Assembly: GCF_000401215.1 (NCBI RefSeq) | Contig: NZ_ASRV01000016.1 | Location: 1 to 33,126 of the forward strand | Direction of reading: 5' to 3' | Length of the DNA: 33,126 nucleotides | Source of the DNA: Clostridium sartagoforme AAU1 | GTDB taxonomy: Bacteria; Bacillota; Clostridia; Clostridiales; Clostridiaceae | In this document: one piece after another, positions 1 through 32,961 of the stretch | How the letters are laid out: the number at the start of each line of letters is the position of its first letter | How positions within the stretch are numbered: position 1 is the stretch's first letter | Notes under the pieces: generated by a model | What the model was told of the DNA's origin: nothing | Database searches by the model: none | Seen by the model: the letters and a program-made list of their open reading frames with translations, nothing else | Translations under genes and position numbers: made by a program

Positions 1-31
1 GTTTTTCATTCTACATTTTACATTCTTCATT

Positions 32-1935: not shown

Positions 1936-4640
1936 TTAGAATAAATCTGGTAAGCTTGGACTTCCATCTGTTGTATTCGGAGTAACTGTAATAACATCCT
2001 TTGAAATATTACTAAACTTAATTTCATTTTTTAATACTTGTGCACTTCCAAGTCCTTCTTTAACTCTTCCTTGATATACAACTAATATATCTGTATCTGA
2101 TAGTTGATTATTTTCTTTAACATTATTAATAGTAATTTTAAATTTATTACCTACATTACTTTCTATAGTCCTTGCTATTTCTATTAATGTATTATCGCCT
2201 GAAGAGTCCTTTAAAACCTTGTATACTTTAATGTTGTTAGTATTAACAGTATTAAAATTACTATCTATATTTAGGTCAAAAGTAATACTACTTCCCCCTA
2301 TAGTAAATTCAGCTCCAAAGGTTGCTGTTGATCCTTGAGCTATTTCAATAGCTTTATTATCATTCTCTTGAATGTTAACATCTTTATCTATAATTCCATT
2401 GTATAGTCCATGAATAAGATTTTTCACTTCTTCTTTTACTGTAAATGTTGGCGTTAACACATTTACACTTACATTATTGTTAATTATGCTTTTATATATC
2501 ATTTTATTATCTGATGTTGTTCCAAAATTATAGATTCCTGGCTTAAGATTATTAGCTTTTAATTTAATTTCTATTGTCTTCTCAGCTGCACTATAATTAT
2601 TATTTTCATTTAAACTATATACTATAGTTGGAACTTCTATTATTCCTATATTTTCTTTACCACTCTCTTTAGATCTAACAATTCCAGAGACAGGTTCAAA
2701 GTTATTCCCTATATTTAGATTTATAGTTGGTTTAAATTCATAAGGCTTGGCTGCTGAATAAGATACTAACTTATCTCTCACTAAATCCATCATATTATTA
2801 TTTACTCCATTTTGAGTTGTATTATTGTAAAATATAGTAGTATCATCTTCTCCTAAATCAGTATGAATTTTATATAAATTGCTGTCTTTATTCTGATCTT
2901 CTAAATTTAAAGTAACTATATTATAATTAGCTGATTTAATATTATTAATAAGTTGTTCATACTCACTTTTATTATTATTCTTATGATAATTTACATCTTT
3001 ATTAGATATTATTATTAAATTTTTACTTGCATCAGCTCTTGAATTTTTACTTAACTCAGTGTGAGCTTTCTCTAAGCCTTCATATATCGCCTTAGAATTA
3101 GATGCAGTATAATTTCCATTTTCTAGAACACTTATTTTAGATTGAATTGCCCCGTGATAATCTGTTGCATTAAGAAAATCTTTCAAAGAAAAAATAGTGC
3201 TTTCTCCCTTATTATTAAATAAAATTAATGAATATCTTACTTTATCATTATTCGGGAATTTACTAATTAGTTTATTCCATATTGCATTTTTTATATCTGT
3301 AAAAGTATTAGAATCTTTAAATCCATATTCTGAAACAATTACTATATCCATTTTTCCACTATTCTCTGAATTATTGTATACAAAATCCTCTGGAATTATT
3401 TTATACGTAAGAGTTATTTCTTCATCTTTTTTAATCTCTTGTATATATTCACCAAGCTTGGCTGTAATAATAGGTAATTCATTTGATATTATATCTACCT
3501 TTACATCTACATTTGAGTTTACAGTCAGCTTTTCATTTTCAAATAGAAAATTAATATCTATACTATCCAATATAGATTGCGAGGTCCCAACTTGGGTTCC
3601 CTTTACTATAAAACTAAAACTTACAGGTTCTGCATGATATCTAACTTTTCCTGTTATTTTATCTTCAGATGTCTTATTATAAATTATATTTCCAACTTTA
3701 ACTTCATTTCCCCTATATTGAGATTAAATGATTGATTAAGATCTATATTTAAAGAAACTTCTTTAAGTTCATAACTATTCTTTATATCATCAGCTATTTC
3801 ATTAAATATTTCTGTTATTGATCCATCACTTTTTGAAAAAAATCCATTTTTCTCATTTATATCAGTATTCTCTGATATATTTCTCATAGATTGATGTATT
3901 TGTTTTAGATATTTTGTTCCATTATTATCTAACCCATATCCAATTGAATAAGCATTATATTGTTTAGCAGCTATATGATCCTTTGCAAAATTCTTTGTGT
4001 AATTCATTGTAGTACTATTAGTTGAACTACCGCTTCCATATCTAGTTGGGGTACTATCATCCAATTTATCATACTTAGAATAATATGTTGGATTTCCATC
4101 AGTCATTAAAACTATAGTCTTATTAACACTTTCACTATCATTATTTAATAAGTATGCAGCTTTCCTTAATCCTTCTCTTGTATTTGTACCACCATTAGCA
4201 CTTAATTTATTTATGGTAGTAATTAGAGATGAATCATTGGCAGCTATTAAATTTGATACTATAGTAGCATCTGATGCATATTTTATTATACCTATTTTTA
4301 AGTTAGGAACATCTTTCATTTTCTCAACAAAAGATTTTGCTGCCTCTTTTAAATTCTTAATTTTATTTCCACTCATACTTCCAGAAGTATCTAATACTAA
4401 AACTATCTCTTTTGCTTGTGCTATTGTTTCAAAATCTTCAGGTACTAGTTTTCCTGATACTAATATATCTTCCCCAACCTTTACAGGATTTGGTGTAGCC
4501 TTTAAATCAGTAATTGTAAAACTAGGTTTTGAAGCTATATTATTTGCTTTTGCATTTAAACTTTTAAGGGATATTAAAGATACTATAACAAATAAGAGTG
4601 TTATAATACTTATTATCTTAACCTTCCTTTTTCTAATCAT
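1936..4640 (-). pseudogene. Secreted von Willebrand factor A protein, frameshifted
   Basis: This is one gene read in two frames. The first part (4640 to the stop at 3684) has a Sec-type signal peptide ending near Ala-Lys-Ala, a beta-sandwich stretch, and a VWA domain with an intact MIDAS: DTSGSM at about residue 88, a later Thr in GGTNTREG, and TDG near residue 181. At a G4 tract (plus strand 3710-3713) the frame changes. One extra G would give Asn-Ile-Gly-Gly-Asn-Glu-Val and continue without a stop to 1936, about 901 residues in all. The second part holds another VWA-like domain with a degraded MIDAS, then beta-rich domains. There is no LPXTG, membrane anchor or prepilin motif. The ORF beginning at 3570 uses an internal TTG and is not a separate gene. 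As last gene of the pilus cluster it may be a tip adhesin. A true inactivation, a phase-variable tract or a sequencing error are all possible. Confidence 0.82.
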
Positions 4641-11252: not shown

Positions 11253-11495
11253 GGCTTTCCCCCCTGACTTATAATGCATAATGCGTAATGCACAATGCAT
11301 AATTAATGTAAAAACTCCTAGGGAGTTTTGAAAATTAAATAATCTCTTATATAAAATACATAAGAAAATAATGAGGTTTCTCTTTTGCTTACGCAAAATC
11401 GAAATGAAAAAATGAAAAAATGAAATAATTAAAGAATAAATTCATTTGGAATTTATAAATCTTAATAATTTAATTATGCTAAAATCTCTTTATTT
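11253..11495 (-). repeat. Repeat-filled pilA-pilM gap
   Basis: The gap holds no gene. It contains tandem GCATAATGC-like words at 11271-11303, a hairpin with arms 11311-11318 and 11322-11329 (AAAACTCC/GGAGTTTT), a TTTTGC-TTAC-GCAAAA hairpin at 11383-11398, direct repeats of the type ATGAAAAA at 11403-11432, and a hairpin at 11478-11499 (GCTAAAAT/ATTTTAGC). On the minus strand the 11311-11329 hairpin is followed by TTTTTAC and may end transcripts arriving from pilA. Confidence 0.6.
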
Positions 11496-12039: not shown

Positions 12040-12298
12040 ACGTTATTCAGTTCACAGTGCACAGTTCTCAATTCACAGTTTTGATCAGTTCACAGCTTTA
12101 TTCAGTGCACAGTTGTCAGTGCACAGTTGTCAGTGCACAATTCACAGTTTTACTCAGCTTTTAAATTTATAATTTAAAAGCCTTGTTATCTGTTATCTGA
12201 CACCTGTTACCTGCCACCTATTCCCTGTTATCTATAAAATAACTAACTGTGCACTGTGCACTGTGCGCTGTGAACTAAAAGAGTGCTTTGCACTTTTT
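12040..12298. repeat. Nested palindromic repeat between pilC and pilA
   Basis: This fills most of the 314-bp gap. Forward words of the type TTCACAGTGCACAG run from about 12048 to 12147. A hairpin GCTTTTAAATT/AATTTAAAAGC follows at about 12158-12181, then TGTTATCTGACACCTGTTACC-like words at about 12184-12233. Reversed words (ACTGTGCACTGTGAAC type) lie at 12242-12276. A hairpin of the form AGTGC-TTT-GCACT at about 12281-12295 abuts the pilC stop. No gene is present in this gap. Confidence 0.85.
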
Positions 12299-13499
12299 AC
12301 ATCTGAGTGTACATATCAAACATCGGTAGCATTATTGAAATAACAATCCCTCCAATAACTACCCCCATAACTACTATTAGTAATGGTTCTATTAATGAAG
12401 TTGTTGTTTGAATAGCTTGTTCAACCTCATCATCATAGAAGTCTGCTGTTTTGTTTAGGATATCATCTAGTGAGCCGGATTCTTCTCCTATTTTTATCAT
12501 TGAAGATAGCATCTTAGGGAAAATATCATTTTCTCTTATAGGAGTACTCAATCCATCTCCTCTTACAACTCTTTCTCTTATTCTTAAAATTGCATCTTCT
12601 GCCACTTTATTTTCTAATACTCCTGCAACAGTTGGCAGTGCTTGCACTAAAGATACTCCTGATGCTAATAAGGTAGATAAAGTTCTTGTAAATCTAGATA
12701 CTATTATTTTTTTATTTAAATTTCCTATAATAGGAAGTTTTAACTTTAAATTGCTTATAGTTACTACTCCATTTGAACTTTTTTTGTAAATATTAAAAAT
12801 TATTACCATGATTACTATTGTTAGTATTATGATAATTAAGTTATTGCTTAGAAATTTACTTGTGCCAAGCATAAATCTTGTTATCAAAGGAAGGGTTATA
12901 CCTTCACCTTCAAACATTTCCACAAAGGTTGGCATTACAAAAGTCATTATAAACATAACTGCCACCACTGCAACTATACTAAGGATAGCTGGATATGTCA
13001 TTGCTGACTTAACTTTATTGTTAATTTTATTTTCTTTTTCAAAATGTACAGACATTCTAAGCATCATTTCATCAATATTTCCACTGACTTCCCCAGACTC
13101 TACCATACTTATTAACAGTTGAGGAAAATGTTTACTGTGCTTAGCCATTGATTCTGATAAAAGCTCACCTTTTTTAACATCATCTTCAATGGTTGATAAA
13201 ATCTCTCTTAGTTTTTTATTTGGTATTTCCTTTGATAAGATATTTATACAATTAGTAATTGATACCCCTGCATCTAGCATTGTATAAAACTGCCTACAAA
13301 ACATTGCCAAATCCTTTGTTGTTATTTTTTCAAAGAGCTTAAATTCTATTGGCTTACTTTCAACTATTTCTTCTATTTTTAAAGGATAGTATCCACTTGA
13401 AGTTATCATATTTATTACATCATCTTTTGAACTACCTTCGAATTTTCCTTCTATTTTAGTTCCATCATTTTTCATAGCTCTATATTTATAATTTTTCAT
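12297..13499 (-). CDS. pilC: Pilus platform membrane protein PilC
   Basis: An inner-membrane platform protein of the GspF/PilC family, 400 residues, full length. It starts with YKYRAMKNDGTKIEGKFEG, the typical N-terminal signature, and has two homologous T2SSF domains (about residues 65-190 and 270-395), each with a conserved GE.SG motif (MVESGEVSGNIDEML-like and MIKIGEESGSLDDIL). Transmembrane helices lie at about 168-190, 218-240 and 373-395. It should couple ATP hydrolysis by PilB to extraction of pilins from the membrane. The ATG at 13499 follows GGGGTG and lies 16 bases after pilB. Confidence 0.95.
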   Translation of the reverse strand: MKNYKYRAMKNDGTKIEGKFEGSSKDDVINMITSSGYYPLKIEEIVESKPIEFKLFEKITTKDLAMFCRQFYTMLDAGVSITNCINILSKEIPNKKLREILSTIEDDVKKGELLSESMAKHSKHFPQLLISMVESGEVSGNIDEMMLRMSVHFEKENKINNKVKSAMTYPAILSIVAVVAVMFIMTFVMPTFVEMFEGEGITLPLITRFMLGTSKFLSNNLIIIILTIVIMVIIFNIYKKSSNGVVTISNLKLKLPIIGNLNKKIIVSRFTRTLSTLLASGVSLVQALPTVAGVLENKVAEDAILRIRERVVRGDGLSTPIRENDIFPKMLSSMIKIGEESGSLDDILNKTADFYDDEVEQAIQTTTSLIEPLLIVVMGVVIGGIVISIMLPMFDMYTQM

Positions 13500-13515
13500 A
13501 ACTTCTTATCACCCC

Positions 13516-15207
13516 TTATATATCCCTTAATAATGTTATAGTTGCAAGTTCTTGTATAGTTGTGGTTCCATTTAGAACTAACTTTTTACACTCCTCTGCA
13601 AGTGTTGTCATTCCATGCTTTATGGATATATCCATTAAAACATTAGAATCTCTTGTTTTATTAATTGCATCTCTATGCTCTCTTGTTATTTCCATTATTT
13701 CATATACACCTATTCGCCCATTATATCCAGTATTATTACAATGTCCACAACCTTTACCATGATATAATTTTAGAACTTCCTTACTATCAACATTAAATAT
13801 TGATTTTTCATAATCAGATGCTATGTATTCTTCTTTGCAATTATTACATATTTTTTTTACTAATCTTTGAGCTATGATTCCTGAAATTGAAGTAGCAACT
13901 AAATACGGCTCAACTCCCATATCAACTAATCTAGTCATTGAAGATGGTGCATCATTAGTATGTAATGTACTTAGTACTAGATGCCCTGTTATAGCAGCCT
14001 TTATAGCTATTTGCGCAGTTTCTTCATCTCTTATTTCTCCAATCATAACTATATCTGGATCTTGTCTTAATATACTTCTAAGTCCACTTGCAAAGGTTAA
14101 CCCAGCCTTTGTATTTACATTAACTTGATTAATTCCATTTAATGTGTATTCAACAGGATCTTCTATTGTTACTATATTTACATTATTAGAATTAAGTTCA
14201 CTTAATATAGTATAAAGTGTTGTTGATTTACCACTTCCTGTAGGTCCTGTTACTAATACTATTCCATGAGGACTAGAAATTATATTATTTAATTTTCTAA
14301 GATTTTCTTTGCTTAGTCCAAGTCTCTCTTTTCCAACTTTATAACTGTCTCTATTTAAAATTCTAATAACTACTTTTTCACCATTTACAATTGGAAGTAC
14401 AGATACTCTAAGATCTACATCAGTATTTCCAACCCTTGTTATTATTCTTCCATCCTGTGGTACTCTTTTTTCTGCTATATTTAAGTTTGCTAATATCTTT
14501 ATTCTTGTTATTAATGGAGCTAAACTTTCTATTCCTAATGTATTGACAGTAGTAAGCTCACCATCAATTCTATATCTTATCCTAATTTCCTTTTCATATG
14601 GTTCTATATGTATATCCGATGCTCTCATTTCAACTGAATTTCTAAATAAGTATTCTATCATTTTAACAACTGGAGCATTTTTTACGTCATCAATTTCTTC
14701 TACATCTAACGCTATATTTTTTGCTTCTAAAGTTTCCTTTAAAAGTTCTTCTGCTGCTTTATTAACTTCTTCACTGCTATAGTTTATTTTAACAAATTTA
14801 TCTATATCATTTTTAGGTGCAATGAATGTCTTAACACTTAGTCCTGTAGATATAGAAATATCATCTATTGCAAATATATTTAATGGATCGCCTAATGCAA
14901 CCATTATTTTATCTTCTTCAAATCCAAATGCAATTAAATTGTATTTATTACAAAGATTTTGAGGTACTATTTTAATTGCTCTTTTATCAAAAACTATATT
15001 ATTTAAATCTATCTTTTTTATCCCTGTTTGAGCTTCTATTGCATCTATAATATCTTCCTCTGAAACAATTCCACTTTCAATTAGGACTTCTCCCAACTTT
15101 TTACCTAAAATCTTTTGAGTTTTTAATGCGCTTTGAAGTTGAAAAGGAGTTATTTTTTCTGCCATTATCAGAATGTCACCAAGTCTTTTCTTTTGAACTA
15201 TAGCCAT
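13516..15207 (-). CDS. pilB: Pilus assembly ATPase PilB
   Basis: A hexameric GspE/PilB-type extension motor, 563 residues. It has an N-terminal MshEN domain (about 1-150) with the repeated LGEVLIESGIV-type motif, which in related ATPases binds cyclic di-GMP. The Walker A motif is GPTGSGKSTT at about 325, the Asp box is IEDPVEY, the Walker B and His box region is RQDPDIVMIGEIRDEETA through GHLVLSTLHTNDA, and a four-cysteine zinc site follows (CNNC and CGHCNNTGYNGR). These make it an assembly, not a retraction, ATPase. No pilT lies in this window. The ATG at 15207 follows GGAGGGGAG. Confidence 0.96.
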   Translation of the reverse strand: MAIVQKKRLGDILIMAEKITPFQLQSALKTQKILGKKLGEVLIESGIVSEEDIIDAIEAQTGIKKIDLNNIVFDKRAIKIVPQNLCNKYNLIAFGFEEDKIMVALGDPLNIFAIDDISISTGLSVKTFIAPKNDIDKFVKINYSSEEVNKAAEELLKETLEAKNIALDVEEIDDVKNAPVVKMIEYLFRNSVEMRASDIHIEPYEKEIRIRYRIDGELTTVNTLGIESLAPLITRIKILANLNIAEKRVPQDGRIITRVGNTDVDLRVSVLPIVNGEKVVIRILNRDSYKVGKERLGLSKENLRKLNNIISSPHGIVLVTGPTGSGKSTTLYTILSELNSNNVNIVTIEDPVEYTLNGINQVNVNTKAGLTFASGLRSILRQDPDIVMIGEIRDEETAQIAIKAAITGHLVLSTLHTNDAPSSMTRLVDMGVEPYLVATSISGIIAQRLVKKICNNCKEEYIASDYEKSIFNVDSKEVLKLYHGKGCGHCNNTGYNGRIGVYEIMEITREHRDAINKTRDSNVLMDISIKHGMTTLAEECKKLVLNGTTTIQELATITLLRDI

Positions 15208-15344
15208 AAACTCCCCTCCGTAGTTTAATTTTAATTATACATAAAAAAAATATTCCTTTTTTATCCATGGTCTATCTATTCTAATATTAATATAGCTTTA
15301 TTGTTTTTTCAATCTGAATATCACTTTTAATTTAATTCACTTTA

Positions 15345-16094
15345 TTAATAAAAAAAGCTTAGATATAACGACAATATTTCTTGTCCATAAAACATACATA
15401 TAACAGCTCCTATAGCTATATATGGTCCAAAAGCTATTTCTGATTTCTTATCTTTTAATTTAAATAAAAGTATTATAATCCCAACTAGTCCTCCTAGTAT
15501 TATAGAAATAAAAAGAGTTACTAAAATTCCTTTAATCCCTAAAAAGAGTCCACAAATGCCAGCTATCTCCGCATCTCCTTGCCCCATGCCATTTGTAGCT
15601 ATAACTATTAGATAAATAATTGCATATCCTATAATTCCACCTAGTAAGTTATTTATAATATTAACTTCTCCAATATATGCTCCTACTACTATATAAATAC
15701 ATCCAATTACAGCCCCTAAAATGGTATTTGAAGTATATATATATTTACTATCTAAATCTATAAAAGAAATAACAATTAATAAAGATGATAATAAACTATA
15801 AAATATAAAATTTAAGCTTATTCCAAATTTAATAAATATCAATAAATATATTAATCCATTTAAAAGTTCTATTAACGGATATCTGCATGATATTTTTTCA
15901 CCACATTTTCTACATCTTCCCCTTAAGAATAAATAACTTAGTATCGGAACTAAGTCATGTGCTTTAAGGTTATAACCACAATTTGTGCAATGTGATGGTG
16001 GAAATGATATAGATTCTTCTTTAGGAATTCTATATATACAAACATTTAAAAAACTACCTATACATAACCCTATTATAAATACAAATATCCCCAT
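15345..16094 (-). CDS. pilD: Prepilin peptidase PilD
   Basis: A membrane aspartyl peptidase (A24A family) of 249 residues that removes prepilin leaders. The N-terminal GIFVFIIGLCIGSFLNVCIYR signature is followed by two CxxC pairs (CTNC and CRKC), the zinc-type cytoplasmic domain linked to N-methylation. The first catalytic Asp is in SFIDLDSKYIYTSN and the second in GMGQGDAEIAG (GxGD type). About eight hydrophobic helices are visible. The start is the ATG at 16094, preceded by GGAGG; an in-frame TTG at 16106 would lie inside that ribosome binding site. It should process PilA, the three minor prepilins and perhaps the product of the 16570-16995 gene. Confidence 0.95.
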   Translation of the reverse strand: MGIFVFIIGLCIGSFLNVCIYRIPKEESISFPPSHCTNCGYNLKAHDLVPILSYLFLRGRCRKCGEKISCRYPLIELLNGLIYLLIFIKFGISLNFIFYSLLSSLLIVISFIDLDSKYIYTSNTILGAVIGCIYIVVGAYIGEVNIINNLLGGIIGYAIIYLIVIATNGMGQGDAEIAGICGLFLGIKGILVTLFISIILGGLVGIIILLFKLKDKKSEIAFGPYIAIGAVICMFYGQEILSLYLSFFY

Positions 16095-16142
16095 AAATAC
16101 CTCCAATAAATTATTTAAAATCTATATTAATATAAATTCTAC

Positions 16143-16172
16143 ATTATATGCCCATTTCCTTTTAAAGTTTAA
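16143..16172 (-). promoter_or_regulatory. Candidate promoter for pilD and downstream genes
   Basis: On the minus strand TTAAAC (16167-16172) and TATAAT (16143-16148) are 18 bases apart, about 50 bases before the pilD start. The -10 is perfect, the -35 weak. Confidence 0.4.
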
Positions 16173-16477
16173 GATTTTTGTAATAAATTGGATATTGTTT
16201 CAAAAGGATTAGTTTATGTTTATTCTGTTTTTTAACCACTAAATTGTATTTATTATTCTCTAATTAAAATTCTTATATAGTTCTTAAGAACATTATATTA
16301 TATTAATTTACTTATACATAGTGGTAATATACACCTTAATAGAACCTAAAAGGAAACAATAAAAATTTAAAGAAAAAAATCTTTAAACTACGTTTGAACA
16401 AAGAGTGTTTAACACTAATTCAAATTTCACATAGCAATTATTGATATTTATTCAAGTTTTCCACACTTATTCTACCT
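16173..16477. other. Gene-free gap upstream of pilD
   Basis: No gene is seen in either strand. The most notable site is a perfect 12-bp palindrome, GTTCTTAAGAAC, at 16280-16291, inside AT-rich DNA and about 110 bases upstream of the candidate pilD promoter. It could be an operator, but nothing in the window names its protein. Confidence 0.35.
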
Positions 16478-16566
16478 TCCCTTGTTACCTGACACTTGTT
16501 ACCTAACTCAAGCTGTGAACTGTGCCTTGTGCACTGTGAACTAAAAACCTGTCCCCTGCTCCCTAA
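16478..16566. repeat. Repeat element between prepilin-like gene and pilD
   Basis: The element has TTGTTACCTGACACTTGTTACC-like words at 16482-16504, then CTGTGAACTGTGCC and GTGCACTGTGAAC words at 16512-16542, then CCTGTCCCCTGCTCCCT words at 16547-16564. It is a half-element lacking the forward-strand arm seen at 12040 and 22351. Confidence 0.8.
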
Positions 16567-16569
16567 CAT

Positions 16570-16995
16570 CTATTCCTTTTCATTAATTATTCTTAAAAAG
16601 TTTCCTTCTTTATCTATTTCAAAATCTGCTGAATCAGTTATTATTTGTTTAGCTTCTTCTATCTTTAAATATTTTATTTTTTCTATTTTTTTTGAATCAT
16701 CAATATAATTTTTTATTACACTTAAATTCTTATCGCTATTATCTTCCATTGATTTAATTGAATCTGAATCTAAGACTTCAATATTGTCTTTTACCTTTGC
16801 AATTTCTACTGCCATTATAAAATCTTGTATTATACTTTTTACTTCTGCCTTTTTTGTATCAACTGAATACTTTTTAAAGTTAGGTATTAATATAGCCATT
16901 AATGCTATTATTAATACTATTAATGTGATCATTTCAATTATAGTGAAATTATATTTTTTATATTTCTTTTTTTTCTTATTACTATACTTGGTCAT
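16570..16995 (-). CDS. Prepilin-like protein with non-canonical cleavage site
   Basis: A 141-residue protein. Its N terminus is highly basic (KKKKKYKKY), followed by NFTIIEMITLIVLIIALMAILIPNF. This resembles a prepilin helix with Glu at +5 and Pro at the usual helix position, but the residue before Phe is Asn, where prepilins have Gly (rarely Ala or Ser). The C-terminal part (about 50-141) is charged and has no family I recognise. The ATG at 16995 follows AGAGAGG. It stands first in the pilus cluster, upstream of pilD. It may be a minor pilin cut inefficiently, a pilin kept in the membrane, or a degenerate copy. Confidence 0.68.
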   Translation of the reverse strand: MTKYSNKKKKKYKKYNFTIIEMITLIVLIIALMAILIPNFKKYSVDTKKAEVKSIIQDFIMAVEIAKVKDNIEVLDSDSIKSMEDNSDKNLSVIKNYIDDSKKIEKIKYLKIEEAKQIITDSADFEIDKEGNFLRIINEKE

Positions 16996-17115
16996 GATAT
17001 TACCTCTCTAATTTATATTAATACTAACTATATTATACTAATGATTACTACGGATTACTTACTTATTTATTTAATATCTTATATTTCCCTAATAAATTAT
17101 ATCACTACAATCACA

Positions 17116-17154
17116 TAAAAAAATAGAGACTTAGTAAAATCTAAGTCTCTATTT
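17116..17154 (-). terminator. groESL terminator
   Basis: A perfect 14-bp stem (arms 17121-17134 and 17141-17154, with core AGAGACTTAG/CTAAGTCTCT) has a 6-base loop and is followed by T residues on the minus strand at 17116-17123. It ends 10 bases after the groEL stop. Confidence 0.92.
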
Positions 17155-17163
17155 CTATTAATC

Positions 17164-19100
<1,937 letters not shown>

Positions 19101-19134
19101 CTATTTATATCTATAATTTAATTACCCTTTTATA

Positions 19135-19161
19135 TTAGCACTCACCACCAATAAGTGCTAA
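19135..19161 (-). promoter_or_regulatory. CIRCE operator for HrcA
   Basis: TTAGCACTC, nine bases, then AAGTGCTAA. The consensus inverted repeat is TTAGCACTC-N9-GAGTGCTAA, so only one base differs. It overlaps the expected transcript start of groESL, where HrcA binding blocks expression until heat stress. Confidence 0.95.
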
Positions 19162-19168
19162 CAACTTT

Positions 19169-19197
19169 ATGATAATATTTTACTTTATATTTTTCAA
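19169..19197 (-). promoter_or_regulatory. groESL promoter
   Basis: On the minus strand TTGAAA (19192-19197) and TATCAT (19169-19174) are 17 bases apart, directly upstream of CIRCE. Both hexamers are close to the sigma-A consensus. Confidence 0.72.
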
Positions 19198-19322
19198 ATG
19201 TTACCTCATATATTATTACCCTATATATAATAATTATTACTCTTTTTCATTAAATATTTCCAATTTCCTCATACTTTTGTTTATTTTCTTCATTTTAAAT
19301 ATAATTCTATTTATAAATCTTA

Positions 19323-20600
19323 TTACCTTAAGTTGTAAATATTTTTATTTATACACACCCCTAGAAATATCCAAAAAATAGGTGCTACCATTATTACGCT
19401 TATATTAAAGAAAGCTTGTACTAAATACCCTGTTAAAGTTAAAAATAATACCTTAGATGAGTTATTATTAAAGTTCCTTATTAATTTATGTATCACTAAT
19501 CCAATTAATATCAAATATGATATTAAATTAAAAATACCATTGCTAACTGCATATTCTAAATATTCATTATGAGACTTGTCAATATATGCTCCATGACTTT
19601 CTAAATATCCTTGATACCTATTATGATAATCAAAATCTAGTCTATAACCTAATGTATCAGGGCCCCACCCTATAAATGGGCTATCTATGAATGCCTTCCA
19701 TGAAATTTTTAATATCTCTATTCTTCCGCTATCTTGAATTTTTGTATTTCCTTTTTCATCTACTGATATAGTATTATTTGCTCTACTAAAAATTTTTCCA
19801 CCTGAAGATATATTTATTAATAGAAATATTCCACAGAACAATATGAAAATATTACCTGCTCTTTTTATCTTTTTTATATCTTTGAAAATTAAAATAAATC
19901 CTATGATTGAATATATTATAAAAGCAAGCCATCCACTACGTGTTAATGTACAAATTAAAGCTGAAAATATTATTACTGAATATATTAAATATTTTCTTCC
20001 TCCATTAAATATATAAATAGCCATGCTTATAAATAGAAAAATACATAGGTAAGAAGAAAAAAAGTTTCTATTTCCTATTAACCCAATAGAATCTCCAACT
20101 GATATATATCCAAGCATCCAGTATTGTACAGGATCAATATTATAAAACTGTATTACTCCATATGAGGCCATAATGCAAGCAGATATTAGTATTATGTCTA
20201 ATATTTTTTTGTTTAATATTAAGTATTTAGAAGCTAGTATAAATAATATTATATAAATACAGTAAATTATAAATCCCTCACCTCTAGTGATATTTCCCAT
20301 AAAAGCTACATACTTTTCCTTTGATAATATACTTGGAATTAACATTGTTAGGAGAAACACTAATGCTATCTTATGCTCAATACTAAATTCTGTTACCTTT
20401 AGTTTTATTAACGATAACAGAGAAATTATTCCTACAATATAAAGAAAGATTAATTTTCCTACTACATATCTTGGTGATGATACATTTACAACTATAAAAG
20501 GCATAATAATTATTACAGAATATAATATTATGTTTACTAGCCTTTCTGTATCAATTTCCTTTGTGAAAATTCCTTTTATTTTTTCATATATATTTTGCAC
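19323..20600 (-). CDS. O-antigen ligase/Wzy-type polymerase
   Basis: A membrane protein of 425 residues with about ten to twelve hydrophobic helices. It has the Wzy_C-like periplasmic loop: FIGWGPDTLGYRLDF followed by SHNEYLEYAVSNGIF, including the conserved His and Glu of the O-antigen ligase superfamily. These enzymes transfer or polymerise lipid-linked glycans; some relatives attach glycans to pilins. The start appears to be GTG at 20600, after TAGGGG. It ends beyond the groESL promoter and is bordered by repeat DNA upstream. Its substrate (wall polysaccharide, teichoic-type glycan or pilin) cannot be told from sequence. No glycosyltransferase genes accompany it here. Confidence 0.8.
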   Translation of the reverse strand: MQNIYEKIKGIFTKEIDTERLVNIILYSVIIIMPFIVVNVSSPRYVVGKLIFLYIVGIISLLSLIKLKVTEFSIEHKIALVFLLTMLIPSILSKEKYVAFMGNITRGEGFIIYCIYIILFILASKYLILNKKILDIILISACIMASYGVIQFYNIDPVQYWMLGYISVGDSIGLIGNRNFFSSYLCIFLFISMAIYIFNGGRKYLIYSVIIFSALICTLTRSGWLAFIIYSIIGFILIFKDIKKIKRAGNIFILFCGIFLLINISSGGKIFSRANNTISVDEKGNTKIQDSGRIEILKISWKAFIDSPFIGWGPDTLGYRLDFDYHNRYQGYLESHGAYIDKSHNEYLEYAVSNGIFNLISYLILIGLVIHKLIRNFNNNSSKVLFLTLTGYLVQAFFNISVIMVAPIFWIFLGVCINKNIYNLR

Positions 20601-20631
20601 AATTTACCCCTACCAATAGATTAGTATAAAA

Positions 20632-20750
20632 AAATTGCGAAGCAATTTATTTAGTTCACAGTGCACAATTCACAGTTCACAATTGCTGAATTATTTCCAT
20701 AACTGTGAACTGTGCCTTGTTAACTATGTACTAGAAATTTTGCTTCGCAA
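20632..20750. repeat. Palindromic repeat bounded by GCGAAGC hairpins
   Basis: The left end is AAATTGC-GAA-GCAATTT (20632-20648). It continues with forward words AGTTCACAGTGCAC and CACAGTTCACA (20653-20684), then reversed words AACTGTGAACTGTGCC (20701-20716). The right end is TTTTGCTTCGCAAAG, containing GCTTCGC, the reverse complement of GCGAAGC, at 20742-20748. The whole can fold as one imperfect hairpin and reaches within a few bases of the hydrogenase stop. Confidence 0.85.
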
Positions 20751-20754
20751 AGCT

Positions 20755-22248
20755 CTACTGTCTTTCTAAATTTATATTTTTGTATTCACTAATTTTTTCA
20801 TTATCTATAACAGCTTTCTTAGTAGCTTGTGAATTTATCTTATTAAATACAGTCTTAGATTTAAATGGAGTCACTAAAGTACCTGCTCCATTTATACAAC
20901 CTCCATCACACATCATTCCTTCTATGAAGTTACCTGGTAGTCTTCCAATCTTAGCCATAGTCATCATCTTCTTTATTTCTATCCCTCCAGATACCTTTAC
21001 TGGATTGAAATTTACTTCTATTCCTTGGCTTCTAACGTAATTTTCTATAGCGGCTGTTAATCCTCCATGTGATCCAAAACCTCTTCCATATATTGATGCA
21101 TCATCCACAACTTCATTTTCACAAGAATCAATATCTATATCAAAAGCGCTAAATAAAGCAAGTAGTTCTTCAAATGTTATAACATAATCTACTGCATCTT
21201 TTACTGACTCTCTAACTGCTTCACTCTTTTTAGCAGTACATGGTCCAATAAAGACAACTTTCGCTTCTGGATCATTGTGTTTTATAAATCTCGCTGTTGC
21301 TATCATTGGAGATACTGTTCCTGATATATTTTTTACTTCTGATGGGAACATCTTTTCAATATAACTTAAGAATCCTGGACAACAAGAATTGGTCATGTAA
21401 TTTTGACCTTCTTCTAATCTTTCTAAAAATTCTCCACTTTCATGTACAGTTACTGCATCAGCACCACAAGCTGCTTCTACCATATCTACAAAGCCTAATT
21501 TCTTTATTGCATTTTTGATTTGTCCATATGAAACTTTTGCTCCAAATTGTCCTGTTATTGCTGGTGCTACTACTGCATACATTTTTCTCTTTCTTCCAAG
21601 TCTTTTTGCTATAGGAACAATTAGACTTTTATCAGAAATAGCTCCAAAAGGACATGCATTCATACAACTTCCACAGTTAACACATGTTTCTTCTTTTATC
21701 ATAGCTCTTCTATCTTCTATATTTATATCTAATGCACCAGTTGGACATACTCTTTTACATGGTCTCATAACTTCAGCAATAGCATCGTAAGGGCATGCTT
21801 TTTTACACATTCCACATTCTCTGCAAAGTTCTTGGTTTATATATGCTCTTCCTGCAACATAAGTTATTGCTCCAAAGTTACAAGCCTCATGACATTTATG
21901 TGCCAAACAATTTCTACATGAATCTGTAACACTATATTTATTTATAGGGCATCTATCACAAGCTGCTTCAATGACATATATTATTTGATCATCTTCTTTG
22001 ATATCAACAAATTCATCATCTATATTATCTCCATTAGCTAAATACCCTGCTGCTAGCTTAGCTCTTTCTAAAACAATGGCTCTTTCTTTATAGACACAGC
22101 ATCTATACATAGCTGTATCCCCCTTAATAATTTCATAAGGAATTTTTTCAATTGATTCTGTTGTTAGATTTCCATCCTTAGCTAGTTTAGCAACTTCTGT
22201 CAATACCTCATGCTTGAGCTTTTTTAATTGAGTTTCAAATTGGAACAT
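20755..22248 (-). CDS. Monomeric [FeFe]-hydrogenase, probable group B
   Basis: A cytosolic iron hydrogenase of 497 residues that would interconvert protons and H2, probably with ferredoxin. An N-terminal Cys-rich segment (CDRC and CRNC, CHEAC at about 93-120) precedes two ferredoxin-type [4Fe-4S] sites (CRECGMCKKACPYDA at about 142 and CVNCGSCMNACPFGA at about 188, with CKRVCPTGA between). The H-cluster motifs are L1 NSCCPGF (about 287), L2 GPCTAKKSE (about 336) and L3 EGMMCDGGCINGAG (about 440), all with the ligand cysteines. L1 and L2 differ from the group A TSCCPGW and MPCTAKK, which points to group B; phylogeny should settle this. The ATG at 22248 follows TAGGAGGA. No maturase genes (hydE, hydF, hydG) are in the window. 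Confidence 0.88.
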   Translation of the reverse strand: MFQFETQLKKLKHEVLTEVAKLAKDGNLTTESIEKIPYEIIKGDTAMYRCCVYKERAIVLERAKLAAGYLANGDNIDDEFVDIKEDDQIIYVIEAACDRCPINKYSVTDSCRNCLAHKCHEACNFGAITYVAGRAYINQELCRECGMCKKACPYDAIAEVMRPCKRVCPTGALDINIEDRRAMIKEETCVNCGSCMNACPFGAISDKSLIVPIAKRLGRKRKMYAVVAPAITGQFGAKVSYGQIKNAIKKLGFVDMVEAACGADAVTVHESGEFLERLEEGQNYMTNSCCPGFLSYIEKMFPSEVKNISGTVSPMIATARFIKHNDPEAKVVFIGPCTAKKSEAVRESVKDAVDYVITFEELLALFSAFDIDIDSCENEVVDDASIYGRGFGSHGGLTAAIENYVRSQGIEVNFNPVKVSGGIEIKKMMTMAKIGRLPGNFIEGMMCDGGCINGAGTLVTPFKSKTVFNKINSQATKKAVIDNEKISEYKNINLERQ

Positions 22249-22350
22249 ACCAAAATCCTCCTATATAAATAAATTTAACCTATTTATCCCCTATATTATT
22301 ATATCAGTTAATTTATCCCAAGTTGTTTTATTCTAAATATTCTGAAAATA

Positions 22351-22600
22351 AAAATTGCGAAGCAATTTTATTCAGTTTACAGTGTACAATTCACAGTTCA
22401 TAGTTTTTTGGATAAAGGAACAGGTATCAGAGAACAGGGAACAAGTTATAAATTTAAAATTAAGAATGAAAAAATCATTAAAGGATTTTTTCATTCTTTC
22501 ATTTATAAATTGATTTATAATTTTATATCACAACCTGTTACCTGCTACTTGTTCCCTTTTACCTATAAAATAACTGTGAATTATACCTTGTGAACTGTTC
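22351..22600. repeat. Large nested inverted-repeat element
   Basis: The most complete copy, about 250 bases. From left: AAATTGC-GAA-GCAATTT hairpin (22352-22368), A words CAGTTTACAGTGTAC and TTCACAGTTCA (22373-22400), B words GGAACAGGTATCAG and GAACAGGGAACAAG (22417-22445). The centre is a perfect 14-bp hairpin (22463-22476 with 22484-22497). Then come reversed B words CCTGTTACCTGC and CTTGTTCCC (22533-22557) and reversed A words ACTGTGAATT and TGTGAACTGT (22573-22598). It fills the gap between the kbaZ end and the hydrogenase; no gene is in it. Confidence 0.87.
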
Positions 22601-22601
22601 T

Positions 22602-23933
22602 CTATAAGGTTGTTTCACAATTAGCTTCAATGGCATATATATAGTCATCTAAATATTCACCAATTCTATCTTTTAATAATTCCTTAGCATTTGGCTTTAA
22701 TAATCCTTCTCTAACCTTTTTATATTGTTCATGCATAAATTGACTTATAACTGTTATCGGAATTTCCATTCCTTCTAAATTACTCATAAGCTTTTCTAAA
22801 GCAAAGTTAACTTCATCTTTAGGCATATAATATCTCGCTCTATCAGATAAGCTATATTTTCTTTCTATTTTTACTTTTTCTCCTGTACCTGAATAGTGAT
22901 GTACCCAATCTTTTGGATTCTTTACCATACTAAAATCTAATATTTCCATAAAATTAGATAATTCTGCATTTGAATCGTATTTTAATATTTCATTTTCAAT
23001 AAGATTTAATGAAAATATACCTTCTCTAAAGCCAAATGTTAAGGCTGGTCCAACTTTTAATATTATAAACCCATCTTCAACCATTTGTTTTAGAGCTTTA
23101 GGTGTTTAATAATCAGTTGAATGTGCTTCAAATATTAATTGTGGATAATCTTTTAATCCATTTATTAATTCTTTAGCTTCTTCTCTGTTATAATTCCACA
23201 CTTCATCACTGCTAAACTCAACACCTGGTTGTACTACAACACCTATTACATATTCCCAAGCATCTCCTACCCCATAGCTTTCAAATGCAGATTTGAATGT
23301 TTCTACTGTAGTCTTAAAACCTTCTATACTAGTAACCTTTGGGCCTTCTTCCTCTTCTTCAACTTGTGCTCCTCCTGGTATTGGAACTTCACTACCTATA
23401 ATATAAACTGGATGAAAAGCATTTTTATTTTCTTCTTTTAGCTCTAAGTATGCTTCTTCTGCAATTTTACATAGCACTGATGCTCTATCAGCTATTAATG
23501 CATCTCCAAATTTACCACTTTCAATGTCTCCTTTTAGTGGCATACTTGTATCTATATGAATTTTGGTGAATCCTGCTAAAACATATTCTCTTATTAAACT
23601 TTTAGCATTTTCCATAGCTTCACTTGGATCTATATTTTTCCAGGTTAATGGTCCTAAATGATCTCCTCCTAAAATTATTCTTTCTTTTGGAAATCCTATT
23701 CTTTCTGCTATTTTATAAATATACTCTACATAATCTTTTGGTTTCATTCCAGTGTATCCACCAAATTGGTCAACTTGATTTGCTGTTGCTTCTACTAAAA
23801 GCGGTATATTTTTATTTAAAAGCTTCTCCATACTTGCTTCTATTACATAATTATTAGAGCAACATACAGAAAATATTCCTACATTTTCACCATTTTTATA
23901 TCTATTAACGATATCCTTCATTGGATGTATCAT
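22602..23933 (-). pseudogene. kbaZ: Tagatose-bisphosphate aldolase non-catalytic subunit with in-frame stop
   Basis: GatZ/KbaZ-type protein that supports the KbaY/GatY aldolase. Residues 1-275 run from MIHPMKDIV to IFEAHSTDY, then TAA at 23106-23108, then the same frame continues TPKALKQMVEDGFIILKVGPALTF to the end at 22602. Family members continue through Gln after HSTDY, so CAA to TAA is the simplest change. Without the stop the protein would be about 443 residues, the family length. Typical marks present are GIFSVCCSNNYVIEA, LGGDHLGPLTW and GSEVPIPGGAQ. It follows kbaY with a perfect inverted repeat in the gap. The ORF starting at 23084 has no ribosome binding site and is just the distal half. 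A sequencing error or a genuine nonsense allele are both possible. Confidence 0.88.
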
Positions 23934-29985: not shown

Positions 29986-30353
29986 CTATTTGCTACCTTT
30001 TACTGGCGATCCCGTGAACGGGTCAATATATTCCTTCATACTAATTTGCTCTGCTATTTGATCTTCTTGTATTTGATTCTGAATATATTTTGTTATTGCA
30101 GTTTTATTTCTGCCTACCGTATCAACATAATATCCTCTACACCAAAAGTGTCTATTTCCATACTTATATTTTAAATTAGCAAATCTATCAAAAATCATTA
30201 AACTACTTTTTCCTTTTAGTATTCCCATAAATTTTGATACACTCATTTTCGGTGGAATAGTCACTAACATATGTATGGTGTTAGTATAAAGTAGTGGACA
30301 CATTAAGTCGAACTAAGTAAAATTATATTTAGTTAAGAAAGGATGTGTCCATT

Positions 30354-30626
30354 ATGGGAAGTGGCAAAAGATATGATCAAGAGTATAAAAATATGATAGT
30401 AGATTTATTTAAATCAGGGATGAGTTTACCAGAGATAAGTAGCGAATATGGCATTGCAAAATCAACAATTAACAGCTGGATCAAAGATGTAAAAGAAATT
30501 AAGGTAGATGAAAATGAAGTTATGACATTAAAAGAAGTTAAAGCTTTAAAAAAGGAGATGGCAAGGATTAAAGAGGAAAATGAAATATTAAAAAAAGCTA
30601 TGGCCATATTTGCAACAAGAAATTAA
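30354..30626 (+). CDS. IS3-family transposase OrfA
   Basis: A 90-residue DNA-binding subunit. It has a helix-turn-helix (KNMIVDLFKSGMSLPEISSEYGIAKSTINSWI in two turns) and a C-terminal leucine-zipper-like coiled coil (MTLKEVKALKKEMARIKEENEIL). The ATG at 30354 lies about ten bases after AAAGGA; an in-frame GTG at 30345 would leave almost no spacing. The A7 tract near its end suggests frameshifting into OrfB. Confidence 0.9.
   Translation: MGSGKRYDQEYKNMIVDLFKSGMSLPEISSEYGIAKSTINSWIKDVKEIKVDENEVMTLKEVKALKKEMARIKEENEILKKAMAIFATRN
30590..30596 (+). promoter_or_regulatory. Programmed -1 frameshift site
   Basis: The tract is A-AAA-AAA in the OrfA frame, followed by G. A -1 slip gives an uninterrupted frame from OrfA through 30680 into OrfB, making the OrfAB transposase typical of IS3-family elements. 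Confidence 0.75.
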
Positions 30627-30679
30627 ATCAAGTAATAGTATTTATAGATAATAATAAAAATAACCACGATATTAAGACT

Positions 30680-31501
30680 ATGTGTACCGTTCTAGGCGTA
30701 GCCAGAAGTACATATTATAAATATTTTGATAAAACTAAATCTGCAAGAGCAATAGAAAATGAGGCATTAAAAGCAGCGATTATAAGGATATATAAAGTCA
30801 ATAAAGGTATATATGGTGCTCCTAGGATTCATTATATACTTGGTACAGAAGGCTTCAATGTATCAATAAAGAGAGTTCAAAGAAAAATGACCGAACTTGG
30901 TCTTTGTGCAATAACTGTGAAAAAATATAAGCCTCATTCAAATAAAAAAGTAGCAGAAGGTTTAGAAAACGTTTTAAAAAGAGATTTTACAACTACTTCT
31001 ATTAATGAAAAATGGGTTGGAGATATCACATATATTCATACTATCAGAGATGGGTGGTGCTATTTAGCTTCAGTTCTTGATTTACATTCCAAAAAAATAA
31101 TTGGCTACGCTTTCGGTAAAAGAATGACTAATGATTTAGTTTCTAAAGCTTTAAAAAATGCTTATTACAACCAAAATCCTGATAAGAATAAGCAGTTAAT
31201 ATTTCATAGTGACTTAGGCTCTCAATACACTAGTAATGATTTAAAAGAGTTATGTAATGAATTTAATATTACACAATCATTTAGTAAAAAGGGTTGTCCA
31301 TATGACAATGCTTGTATAGAATCCTTCCATTCTTCAATAAAGAAGGAAGAAATATATAGAAATACTTACCGTACCTTCGAAGAAGCTAATATATCTATAT
31401 TTAAATATATTGAAGGCTGGTATAACAGAAAAAGGCTACATTCTTCTATTAATTACATGACTCCAGATCGATGTGAATTATTAGCAAGAAGTGCAGCATA
31501 A
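30680..31501 (+). CDS. IS3-family transposase OrfB (DDE catalytic part)
   Basis: 273 residues with the HTH_21 region (IRIYKVNKGIYGAPRI) and an rve integrase core. The DDE triad is visible: Asp in WVGDITYI, Asp in FHSDLGSQYTS, and Glu in NACIESFHSSIKKEE, with the usual spacing of 35 residues between the last two. The frame also runs upstream without a stop to the A7 slip site, so the active form is probably the OrfAB fusion. All catalytic residues are present; the copy looks intact and recent. Confidence 0.93.
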   Translation: MCTVLGVARSTYYKYFDKTKSARAIENEALKAAIIRIYKVNKGIYGAPRIHYILGTEGFNVSIKRVQRKMTELGLCAITVKKYKPHSNKKVAEGLENVLKRDFTTTSINEKWVGDITYIHTIRDGWCYLASVLDLHSKKIIGYAFGKRMTNDLVSKALKNAYYNQNPDKNKQLIFHSDLGSQYTSNDLKELCNEFNITQSFSKKGCPYDNACIESFHSSIKKEEIYRNTYRTFEEANISIFKYIEGWYNRKRLHSSINYMTPDRCELLARSAA

Positions 31502-31742
31502 AAAAGTTTGACTTTTTATGTCCAAAATATTGACATAAGACCAGTATATGATCCCGGCAAGCATTCGCTTCGATTATTTCTACTCCGTGTCTTATACATA
31601 TAGTTCTTAATATTTTACCAATTTCAGCCTTATATTTACCATATATTATTTGCCTTCTGTATTTTGGTGCAAATACTATATGATATTGACACCTCCATTT
31701 TGTATGTGATAAGCTTTCTATGTCGTTACCCATACGACACAC

Positions 31743-31861: not shown

Positions 31862-31900
31862 AAAAAGAGGTCTTGCTATTTACTAGCAGTCCTCTTTTTT
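31862..31900. terminator. Bidirectional terminator after the sugar kinase
   Basis: AAAAAGAGG plus TTGCTA pairs with TAGCA plus CCTCTTTTTT, with a small internal mismatch and loop TTTAC. Both strands end in T-runs. It ends the kinase transcript on the minus strand and starts about ten bases from the IS200 edge. Confidence 0.82.
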
Positions 31901-31989
31901 AGTTCACAGTTCACAGTTCACAGTGCACTGTAAACTAGAAAAAACTGTGAACTGTGCACTGTGAATTCTTAACTGAAAAAACTGTGTGT
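31901..31989. repeat. Palindromic TTCACAG repeat downstream of the kinase
   Basis: Three forward AGTTCACAG units ending in GTGCAC (31901-31929), a short ACTAGAAAAA centre, then reversed ACTGTGAACTGTGCAC and CTGTGAATT words (31943-31967), and a final ACTGTGTG (31981-31988). It lacks the B words and the GCGAAGC ends. Confidence 0.83.
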
Positions 31990-32007
31990 TAACTATATCT
32001 TATACTC

Positions 32008-32961
32008 TTATTTTAATATTTCTTTTACATTATCAGGTACAGTATTACCAGCTAAAGTATATGCTAATAAAACAGATCCATTCCAAGGATCAAGTTCAGG
32101 CTCTTGCAAGTAACACTTTAATCCAGATTCCTTTATCATTTCATTTAGTGGCTCTAAAACATGCTTACCTGCTTTAAAAACTCCACCAGTATATGAAACA
32201 ACAAATTCTTCGTTGAAATTCAGTTCCTTTGATATAGCATATATATGCTCAAATATAGCCCTTGCCGCATCTTCAAATATTTTTTTGCAAGCTAAACAGC
32301 CTGCTTCTGCTGCTAAAAAGCATATTGTTGAGAATTTAGCCAGTTCTGTTCTATTGAACTTTAATCTGTTAAATGCAATATCAACTATTTCATATTTATA
32401 TGATATGTTATATTCCTTTTCTAATATATCAACTAAAACTGTTTTTTCACTTCTTCCATCTTTTTGCCTTGTATATTCATTAATAGTTCTTAAAGCAATC
32501 CAGTAAGCACTTCCATCATCACCTATTCCTGGTCCAAAGCCACCACACCTTGCAAGCTTTCCTTCTGCATTTCTTCCATAAGCTATACTTCCTGTACCTG
32601 CCACTACATTTACTCCTGGCTTACAAGCAGTTCCTCCAGCCCATCCATTTACAGCATCATTATCAATTGAATATGGTACCTCCATAACTTCTTTTATTGC
32701 TTCATCAATTTTTACCATATCATCTAAACTTTCGCCATAGCCTGGTACTCCTGCAAAAGCATAAGCTATATCTTTTGTAGATATGTTTACTTCTTCACAT
32801 ATCTTTGAAATGTTTTCCTTAAGTTGACTTTTTATTCCTTCTACCCCAACTTGATGAATGTGTATAGTTGATCCTTCCCTTTCACATACCTTTTGTAAAC
32901 CCTCATTTACTAATAGGTATTTTGTTTTAGTGCCTCCACCATCAATTCCTAAATAATACAT
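32008..32961 (-). CDS. BadF/BadG-family amino-sugar kinase
   Basis: A 317-residue ASKHA-fold kinase of the N-acetylglucosamine kinase/BadF type. It has the phosphate-1 motif YLGIDGGGTKTKYLLVNE at the start, the phosphate-2 and sugar loop VNVVAGTGSIAYGRNAEGKLARCGGFGPGIGDDGS (about 115-150), and the adenosine motif VVSYTGGVFKAG near 265. Length matches the family. By context (agaS, kbaY, a glycan-binding surface protein) it may phosphorylate N-acetylgalactosamine, N-acetylglucosamine or a related sugar; substrate cannot be read from sequence. The ATG at 32961 has GGGGG upstream. No confident promoter was found in the last 160 bases. Confidence 0.87.
   Translation of the reverse strand: MYYLGIDGGGTKTKYLLVNEGLQKVCEREGSTIHIHQVGVEGIKSQLKENISKICEEVNISTKDIAYAFAGVPGYGESLDDMVKIDEAIKEVMEVPYSIDNDAVNGWAGGTACKPGVNVVAGTGSIAYGRNAEGKLARCGGFGPGIGDDGSAYWIALRTINEYTRQKDGRSEKTVLVDILEKEYNISYKYEIVDIAFNRLKFNRTELAKFSTICFLAAEAGCLACKKIFEDAARAIFEHIYAISKELNFNEEFVVSYTGGVFKAGKHVLEPLNEMIKESGLKCYLQEPELDPWNGSVLLAYTLAGNTVPDNVKEILK

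Follow-up and report, generated by a model that had tools for sequence, protein, structure and literature searches.

Nested intergenic palindromes of Clostridium sartagoforme as probable derivatives of small four-helix heptamer elements

Heptamer palindromes in the window

The window analysed here is a whole 33,126-nucleotide stretch of Clostridium sartagoforme AAU1 (contig NZ_ASRV01000016.1, positions 1 to 33,126 of the forward strand). Five gaps between its protein-coding open reading frames (ORFs) hold tandem arrays of short words, mostly arranged as nested palindromes, and arrays of the same kind bracket a small gene of the PF05635 four-helix family elsewhere in the genome. We propose that the window palindromes are probably ORF-less derivatives of such four-helix heptamer elements and, with them, intergenic relatives of the intervening sequences (IVSs) of 23S rRNA. 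Below, G000 is the genome of the window, other G numbers are further genomes of the genus and L numbers are fetched loci; the heptamer words are A (TTCACAG), B (ACAGGTA), C (ATGAAAA) and D (GCATAAT). Periods were assigned with Tandem Repeats Finder (TRF). The features are as follows.

12040-12300, minus strand: nested element meeting the stop of ORF 12297-13499 (minus); A arrays 12051-12095 and 12106-12147, inner hairpin at about 12156-12183, B array 12183-12234, inverted A array 12247-12274, then the right tip AAAGTGCAAAGCACTTTT
16478-16566, minus strand: half element with B-A-B arrays in one direction and without hairpin; ORF 16570-16995 (minus) has its stop 3 bp away
20632-20752, minus strand: A-only palindrome with a GCGAAGC tip at each end and GGAAATAATTCAGC as its inner module; ORF 20755-22248 (minus) has its stop 2 bp away
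22351-22600, minus strand: fullest copy, with GCGAAGC tip, A, B, C hairpin, B' and A', 1 bp from the stop of ORF 22602-23084 (minus)
31899-31990, minus strand: tipless A-only palindrome of four A and about three inverted A words; ORF 32008-32961 (minus) has its stop about 17 bp away
2-31, plus strand: single degenerate heptamer array (TTTTACA/CATTCTA)
11269-11303, plus strand: single D-word heptamer array
11402-11437, plus strand: C-word run, period 8 by TRF

All five elements of the original prediction were recovered by TRF and by inverted repeats, and TRF also returned the single-word runs that it had listed. Period 7 or 14 was assigned to 12048-12148, 12184-12230, 12246-12276, 16513-16542, 20655-20684, 22373-22405, 31901-31928, 31943-31975, 11271-11303 and 2-31. 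The window's words are tandem heptamers, mostly in inverted arrays, from which only the C run departs; that nearly all words are heptamers, and that many tips are palindromic around GCGAAGC, had gone unremarked. The longest inverted repeat of the whole window pairs 20635-20684 with 20701-20750. RNA folding against 200 shuffles gave z values of -10.3 for both 20632 and 22351, -7.1 for 12040, -4.1 for 31899 and -0.5 for 16478, so that four of the five copies form strong stem-loops. The exception is 16478-16566, with its one-way arrays. The five copies sit outside rRNA genes; Rfam detected no rRNA in the window at gathering scores, its sole match there being a purine riboswitch (RF00167, 1655-1752, minus strand, 75 bits).

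Anatomy and siting of the family

The family is dispersed in G000. A 21-mer of A (up to 3 mismatches) found 106+72 matches against 0+0 for a reversed-pattern control, and a 24-mer of B found 22+42 against 2+0, overlapping matches being counted (178 versus 0 for A and 64 versus 2 for B). Few genomes have dense A arrays: with up to 2 mismatches, these gave 79 matches in G000, 44 in G035, 7 in G044, 1-3 in eleven others and none in 54 of the 68 genomes of our genus survey. A search with one whole element from C19 gave 18 matches in G000, a figure that counts the element itself as well as arm-to-arm matches; the best full-length ones are 90% and 85% identical. The element matches something in 9 of the 68 genomes, mostly in pieces.

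Its internal order was examined in 416,895 bases of G000 (the window plus L236-L275), where clusters with at least 28 array bases numbered 57: 21 with A only, 2 with B only and 34 with both. The order A+ B+ B- A- was found in 29 of the 34 two-word clusters, versus a mean of 9.3 and a maximum of 18 over 2000 rounds of label shuffling; the exceptions are five two-word clusters and, in addition, 16478-16566, where the scan recognised only the A array. The words thus follow a shared nested order rather than a random one, in agreement with the original view of one mosaic, non-autonomous, intergenic and shell-built family. Period 7 also stood out among intergenic arrays when compared with each other period from 5 to 12 (6 versus 0 on C8, 8 versus 1-4 on C19 and 16 versus 4-6 in G044), the G000 contigs having been picked for holding arrays and the G044 stretches being the first parts of contigs 1-18.

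The outer tips are often palindromic around GCGAAGC (39 tips listed), and the arms beside this core differ among copies yet remain complementary. As an oligonucleotide, d(GCGAAGC) folds into a DNA mini-hairpin of great stability. Ends are of two types: AAATT-GCGAAGC-AATTT followed by A words, the 14-nt spacer tttttggaataaag and B words, and AAAAT-GCGAAGC-ATTTT followed by A words, ttgttttgatttta and B words. All seven complete tip-to-tip copies have one end of each type, as judged by eye. In a second form, frequent in G035 and present at window position 20632, the inner modules GGATGAAACTAC and GGAAATAATTCAGC replace B. We also considered free GCGAAGC palindromes as targets and rejected this: G000 has 14 in 341 kb, 11 of them near arrays, and G044 has 2 in 371 kb, one near arrays. 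Since they lie mostly near arrays, the tips belong to the elements. Another palindromic type, beginning ATATAAGTTGGYGAAGRTAAATAG, lies behind B words in G000 (L257, L258, L261) and alone in the 20632 gap of G063 (L347).

Elements of this family often have one end close behind a gene. None of the 57 A/B clusters falls mainly inside an ORF (ORFs of at least 90 aa starting at ATG), and the stop end of a gene is at most 20 bp away in 25 of 56 distances, against 2 of 47 for the start end (Fisher p 2.6e-6), which bears out the early remark that several copies touch stop codons. All five window copies come close, on one side, to the stop codon of a minus-strand gene; the distance is 0-17 bp when measured from the ends of the elements and 1-43 bp when measured, as in the script, from the array or tip ends.

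Heptamer arrays around PF05635 genes

On C6 of G000, L236:3967-4320 encodes a four-helix protein of PF05635, the '23S rRNA intervening sequence' family (E 9e-29), with A arrays on one side (3711-3808) and inverted A arrays on the other (4396-4477). Complete members have this build: mostly 3-6 tandem heptamers, a gene for a PF05635 four-helix bundle of about 117 aa, and the same heptamers inverted. The word varies by element, and among the matches listed many inverted words flank the genus PF05635 genes; examples from PF05635 loci are GTGTTAG (L441), GAGTAGT (L440), GGGGTCA (L430), AACAAGG (L436) and, in Nostoc, AATTCGC (L458). Of the 43 loci that have an array on the right, 10 have it beginning with the first nucleotide of the bracketed gene's stop codon. 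The protein has PDB relatives in 2rld (E 8e-48) and 2gsc (E 0.009), with five chains each, and belongs to a large family (7,917 proteins at E <= 1e-10 among 7,999 scored), present in 31 of the 68 genus genomes (30 over the cut-off) and in none of 14 control genomes.

This association was counted in three groups: 35 genus genes (two of them neighbours in G044), 28 of the best 30 matches in genomes of many phyla holding (TTCACAG)x3, and 12 of 37 plasmid records, selected for variety; one double (L422) and five rows with short flanks were removed. A period-7 array lies on at least one side of the gene in 23/35, 18/28 and 11/12 cases, respectively, and arrays of other periods in 0-3 in each group. 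Among 160 small control ORFs from G000, which is array-rich, and G044, 15 have period-7 arrays and 3-11 have arrays of each other period from 5 to 11. The resulting odds ratios are 17-106 (one-sided p <1e-8); for the cross-phylum loci, arrays of other periods and mispaired flanks take the place of local control ORFs. The two flanks of a gene have 11-mers in common in inverted orientation at 23/28 cross-phylum loci (direct 6/28; mispaired mean 1.15 of 28) and at 24/35 genus loci (direct 13/35; mispaired mean 7.3 of 37), against 29/160 inverted and 44/160 direct for control ORFs. An array or a shared inverted 11-mer is found at 28/35 genus, 25/28 cross-phylum and 12/12 plasmid loci.

Some of these loci have features of their own. 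At L422 (G044:C30), two identical PF05635 proteins are encoded by genes 738 bp apart amid AGTTAGG arrays, and the same protein occurs in G015. Array-flanked four-helix genes also lie between cas2 and cas1 (Nostoc, Anabaena), hsdS and hsdR (Monoglobus), and drmD and pglX (Planktothrix) at L459, L461, L457 and L462. We noticed no reverse transcriptase beside heptamer-bracketed genes, no search having been aimed at them.

Linking the window family to the four-helix gene

The words of the window recur around PF05635 genes. The A word flanks those of G000 (C6) and G035 (a partial case at a contig end, L412, left side only), the C word of the run at 11402-11437 flanks one of the two genes in G025 (L397), and the D word of 11269-11303 flanks that of G047 (L407); no PF05635 gene with the B word was seen by eye. 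In G000 and G035 (A), and for one of the two G025 genes (C), the gene's word is also the common word of the ORF-less elements. Window positions 12043-12134 match the A arm of the C6 element over 92 bp with 83% identity, a kind of match that tandem arrays inflate. The 5' flank of the second PF05635 gene of G000 (C17, L416), which carries another word, matches a stretch of C19 over 170 bp with 82% identity (E 4e-36); the family search of G000 places no such gene on C19.

The gap between argC and argJ holds PF05635 elements in G063, G010, G025 and G047, and an argC motif also lies beside those of G018 and G030; a Bacteroidota genome (L433) has a PF05635 element behind argC as well. A single clade (99/99) unites the proteins from G063, G010 and G025, three species in which three words are found: GTGAAAG, one of AAATTAA/TTAAGAA type, and ATGAAAA. 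The change of word affects both arms. In the same tree G018 and G030 pair elsewhere and G047 is unplaced.

The same gaps in related genomes

Orthologous gaps with and without copies were found, as were gaps occupied by different words. At the 20632 gap, G043 has a C-word element within matching tips and G063 an unrelated palindrome. The 22351 gap measures 276 bp in the window versus about 80 bp without the element in G043 and G063, where, by eye, a terminator-like hairpin occupies its place; it is not a base-exact empty site, because the terminator has been lost too. The gap at L243:4295 has A words in G000, C words in G063 and GTGAAAG words in G043, and that at L243:14738 has A and B in G000, C words in G043 and other words in G063. 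The best empty site is the argC-argJ gap (L243:11252), where G000 has a hairpin of A words, about 70 bp long and 6 bp past a stop codon, and G043 has none. Between G035 and G044, four of seven pairs were aligned: in two of them the G044 copy is missing its middle, another is almost empty and has indistinct edges, and the fourth is shared. G000 L253 and L339 gave no clean alignment. The idea that elements grow or shrink shell by shell gains from the matching tips that enclose A words in the window and C words in G043 at one gap, and from the missing middle of two G035 elements in G044; growth loop by loop was itself not observed.

Beyond the genus, we assembled a set of at least 118 A-array loci of up to 8 kb each. 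A single A-B element spreading horizontally over phyla was rejected, as the A-B-B'-A' order occurs at none of the 118 loci listed; 7 of these have B-like matches close to A arrays, and 4 have GCGAAGC no more than 60 bp from them.

Weighing the interpretation

It is likely that the window palindromes belong with the four-helix heptamer elements. That they derive from gene-carrying elements by loss of the ORF, and are intergenic relatives of 23S rRNA IVSs, is our favoured explanation and a probable one. The family does not stand alone, as first thought: its shells are heptamer arrays of the kind that brackets PF05635 genes, and heptamer repeats are already in print. Complete elements are probably mobile; a part for the PF05635 protein in that movement is possible, though somewhat less likely than not.

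Several observations weigh against this explanation. No window copy contains an ORF, and the family search of G000 places PF05635 on C6 and C17 only. Seven of 35 genus and 3 of 28 cross-phylum PF05635 genes have neither array nor inverted match. Pfam finds nothing besides PF05635 in the element protein, and hence no catalytic domain. The gene's word can differ from that of the ORF-less copies, as in G015 and G044 (AGTTAGG, not A), the second PF05635 genes of G000 and G025 have another word or none, and G043 has heptamer elements and no PF05635 gene. PF05635 is present in 45 of 50 genomes, taken from among the 118 A-array loci listed and chosen only for exact (TTCACAG)x3 (nine have 11-15 copies), which is suggestive only, the 31/68 of the genus not being a matched base rate; the other 5 have no PF05635. 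Moreover, by our own profile only 4 of the 118 loci listed hold a PF05635 gene, at one of them (L138) about 3 kb from the A arrays. Repeated arrival of elements at the argC-argJ gap is only possible, since a single clade for all six proteins was not rejected (approximately unbiased test, p-AU 0.28, few columns). Finally, inspection by eye showed no target duplication, either at the seven complete copies or at the argC-argJ gap of G043, an empty site from another species.

The commonness of arrays without a nearby gene (114 of the 118 loci listed) and the different words in one gap across species would suit a local origin as simple sequence repeats (SSRs), in which slippage makes heptamer arrays, template switching makes palindromes, PF05635 merely tolerates or attracts them and nothing moves. 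We consider this unlikely in view of the fixed nested order and two paired end types, the near-identical composites at unrelated loci, the element-sized absences in relatives and the strong coupling to one gene family over many phyla. Hairpins behind stops might also be non-mobile functional structures that recombination has copied and that serve as terminators or stabilise mRNA; the absence of all 57 clusters from ORFs, the stop-side siting and the 22351 copy at the place of a terminator-like hairpin all fit, but a fixed period of 7 with free choice of word, the four-helix gene and insertion between operon genes would be left unexplained, and we regard such an origin as improbable.

Two transposase-based explanations were weighed. 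If the elements were miniature inverted-repeat transposable elements (MITEs), tips and arms would be terminal inverted repeats cut by an unseen DDE or other transposase and PF05635 a passenger. Long terminal inverted repeats, dispersed copies and two consistent end types agree with this. On the other side, no target duplication was noticed by eye, and the words differ between elements, whereas transposases recognise fixed ends; we consider the proposal quite unlikely. A repetitive extragenic palindromic (REP) or REP doublet forming hairpin (REPIN) origin, with movement by a Y1 transposase (REP-associated tyrosine transposase, RAYT), was our first lead, as a 13-unit A array on C217 has a RAYT gene some 130 bp away and the 31901 copy is adjoined by a broken Y1 gene. 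It was rejected, since the RAYT gene is not flanked by the A repeat, and we hold it highly improbable: the ends that flank this RAYT gene closely are different ones, GGACCCCAGGGGT; the other genus RAYT loci sampled (L210-L235) have no A array by the period-7 detector, the period-7 arrays of L214 and L235 being built of other words; A arrays also occur in G044, which lacks the RAYT; and we take the Y1 gene beside 31901 to be of IS200 type. The palindromic RAYT ends lie at L046:1052-1066 and 1960-1973, and the C-terminal half of the protein has four in-frame NNENKDR repeats. In the window, 29986-31742 holds the Y1_Tnp gene (presumably IS200-like) split into 30073-30285 and 31527-31700 by ORFs 30345-30626 and 30680-31501, which we read as an IS3-type pair.

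Proposed mechanism

If the window palindromes do derive from four-helix heptamer elements, their spread could be pictured as follows. Transcribed arms would pair into a long stem, which RNase III might cut out of the operon transcript in the way reported for rRNA IVSs, so that an element inserted behind a stop codon would be tolerated. The pentameric protein may bind the heptamer arms as RNA or single-stranded DNA, recognising the 7-nt register, and may help the arms to spread together with host enzymes. New copies would favour stem-loops, one element settling in the loop of another, and loops as landing places would give concentric shells. Fold-back copying between arms could keep both in the same word as the word drifts; if true, sequence evolution would here take an unusual form, the two arms of a site changing in concert.

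Long-noted bacterial heptamer repeats and a large S23p family without assigned function are found together in many phyla, and this co-occurrence yields a testable hypothesis, that the protein is the factor of the arrays. Four-helix heptamer elements may explain seven-letter repeats in many bacteria. In its widest form, which we put forward tentatively and think rather doubtful, they would be a recombinase-free mobile class that has a pentameric four-helix protein, a fixed 7-nt register and a free word as long as the arms agree. Such elements would insert in hairpin loops or behind stops, nest and shed ORF-less hairpins; they would be the common source of heptamer repeats (cyanobacterial STRRs, TAACTGA of Beggiatoaceae, GGGAATC of Xanthomonas), and rRNA IVSs would be members that landed in rRNA loops.

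Comparison with known systems

The short tandemly repeated repetitive sequences (STRRs) of cyanobacteria are a heptamer SSR family, and the window family resembles SSRs of this type in its intergenic tandem 7-nt units. It differs from the described heptamer SSRs in that the arrays bracket PF05635 genes, those of Nostoc plasmids included. The TAACTGA repeats of Beggiatoaceae have no evident mechanism of spread (PMC4679880), and the GGGAATC repeats of Xanthomonas and Nostoc prefer four units and form 70 and 75 convergent inverted pairs in two Xanthomonas genomes; repeats are described there as generally unassociated with mobile elements (PMC4692102, citing heptamer-repeat work of 1999 and 2007). 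The term 'four helix' is absent from both papers, and among the matches listed no title or abstract start linked heptamer arrays with PF05635, S23p or four-helix genes, in a search covering neither preprints nor most subscription journals.

MITEs (review PMC10969869) share with the window elements short length, lack of ORFs, terminal inverted repeats and dispersal, and a minisatellite inside a MITE is described for Porphyromonas gingivalis (PMC4596501). Unlike MITEs, our elements have nested heptamer shells, their complete relatives encode a four-helix protein, and neither target duplication nor a cognate transposase was seen, with no systematic transposase search between the arms. Small dispersed intergenic palindromes are common to the REP/REPIN-RAYT system (PMC3116915) as well, but there the ends on C217 and the absence of A arrays at other genus RAYT loci set the two apart. 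The Avd protein of diversity-generating retroelements resembles PF05635, a structural alignment suggesting homology, and is essential in retrohoming, according to PMC10053308.

A close counterpart is the 23S rRNA IVS, described in PMC4990558. In Leptospira and Coxiella, an S23p four-helix gene lies between complementary stem-forming ends, and the IVS stem-loop has replaced small tetraloops in the rRNA. The sporadic spread of IVSs suggests horizontal transfer; they are excised post-transcriptionally without ligation, by RNase III in several species. The S23p protein of Xanthomonas is a toroidal homopentamer, and S23p proteins are said there to have no known function. Four of the five window copies likewise have complementary stem ends, and complete relatives carry their PF05635 gene between inverted arms. 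Against this published description, our sole basis for the rRNA side, the window elements differ in lying behind the stops of ordinary genes and outside rRNA genes, in their many ORF-less nested copies and in tandem-heptamer arms of changing word. If the kinship is true, rRNA intervening sequences are joined to elements in ordinary operons.

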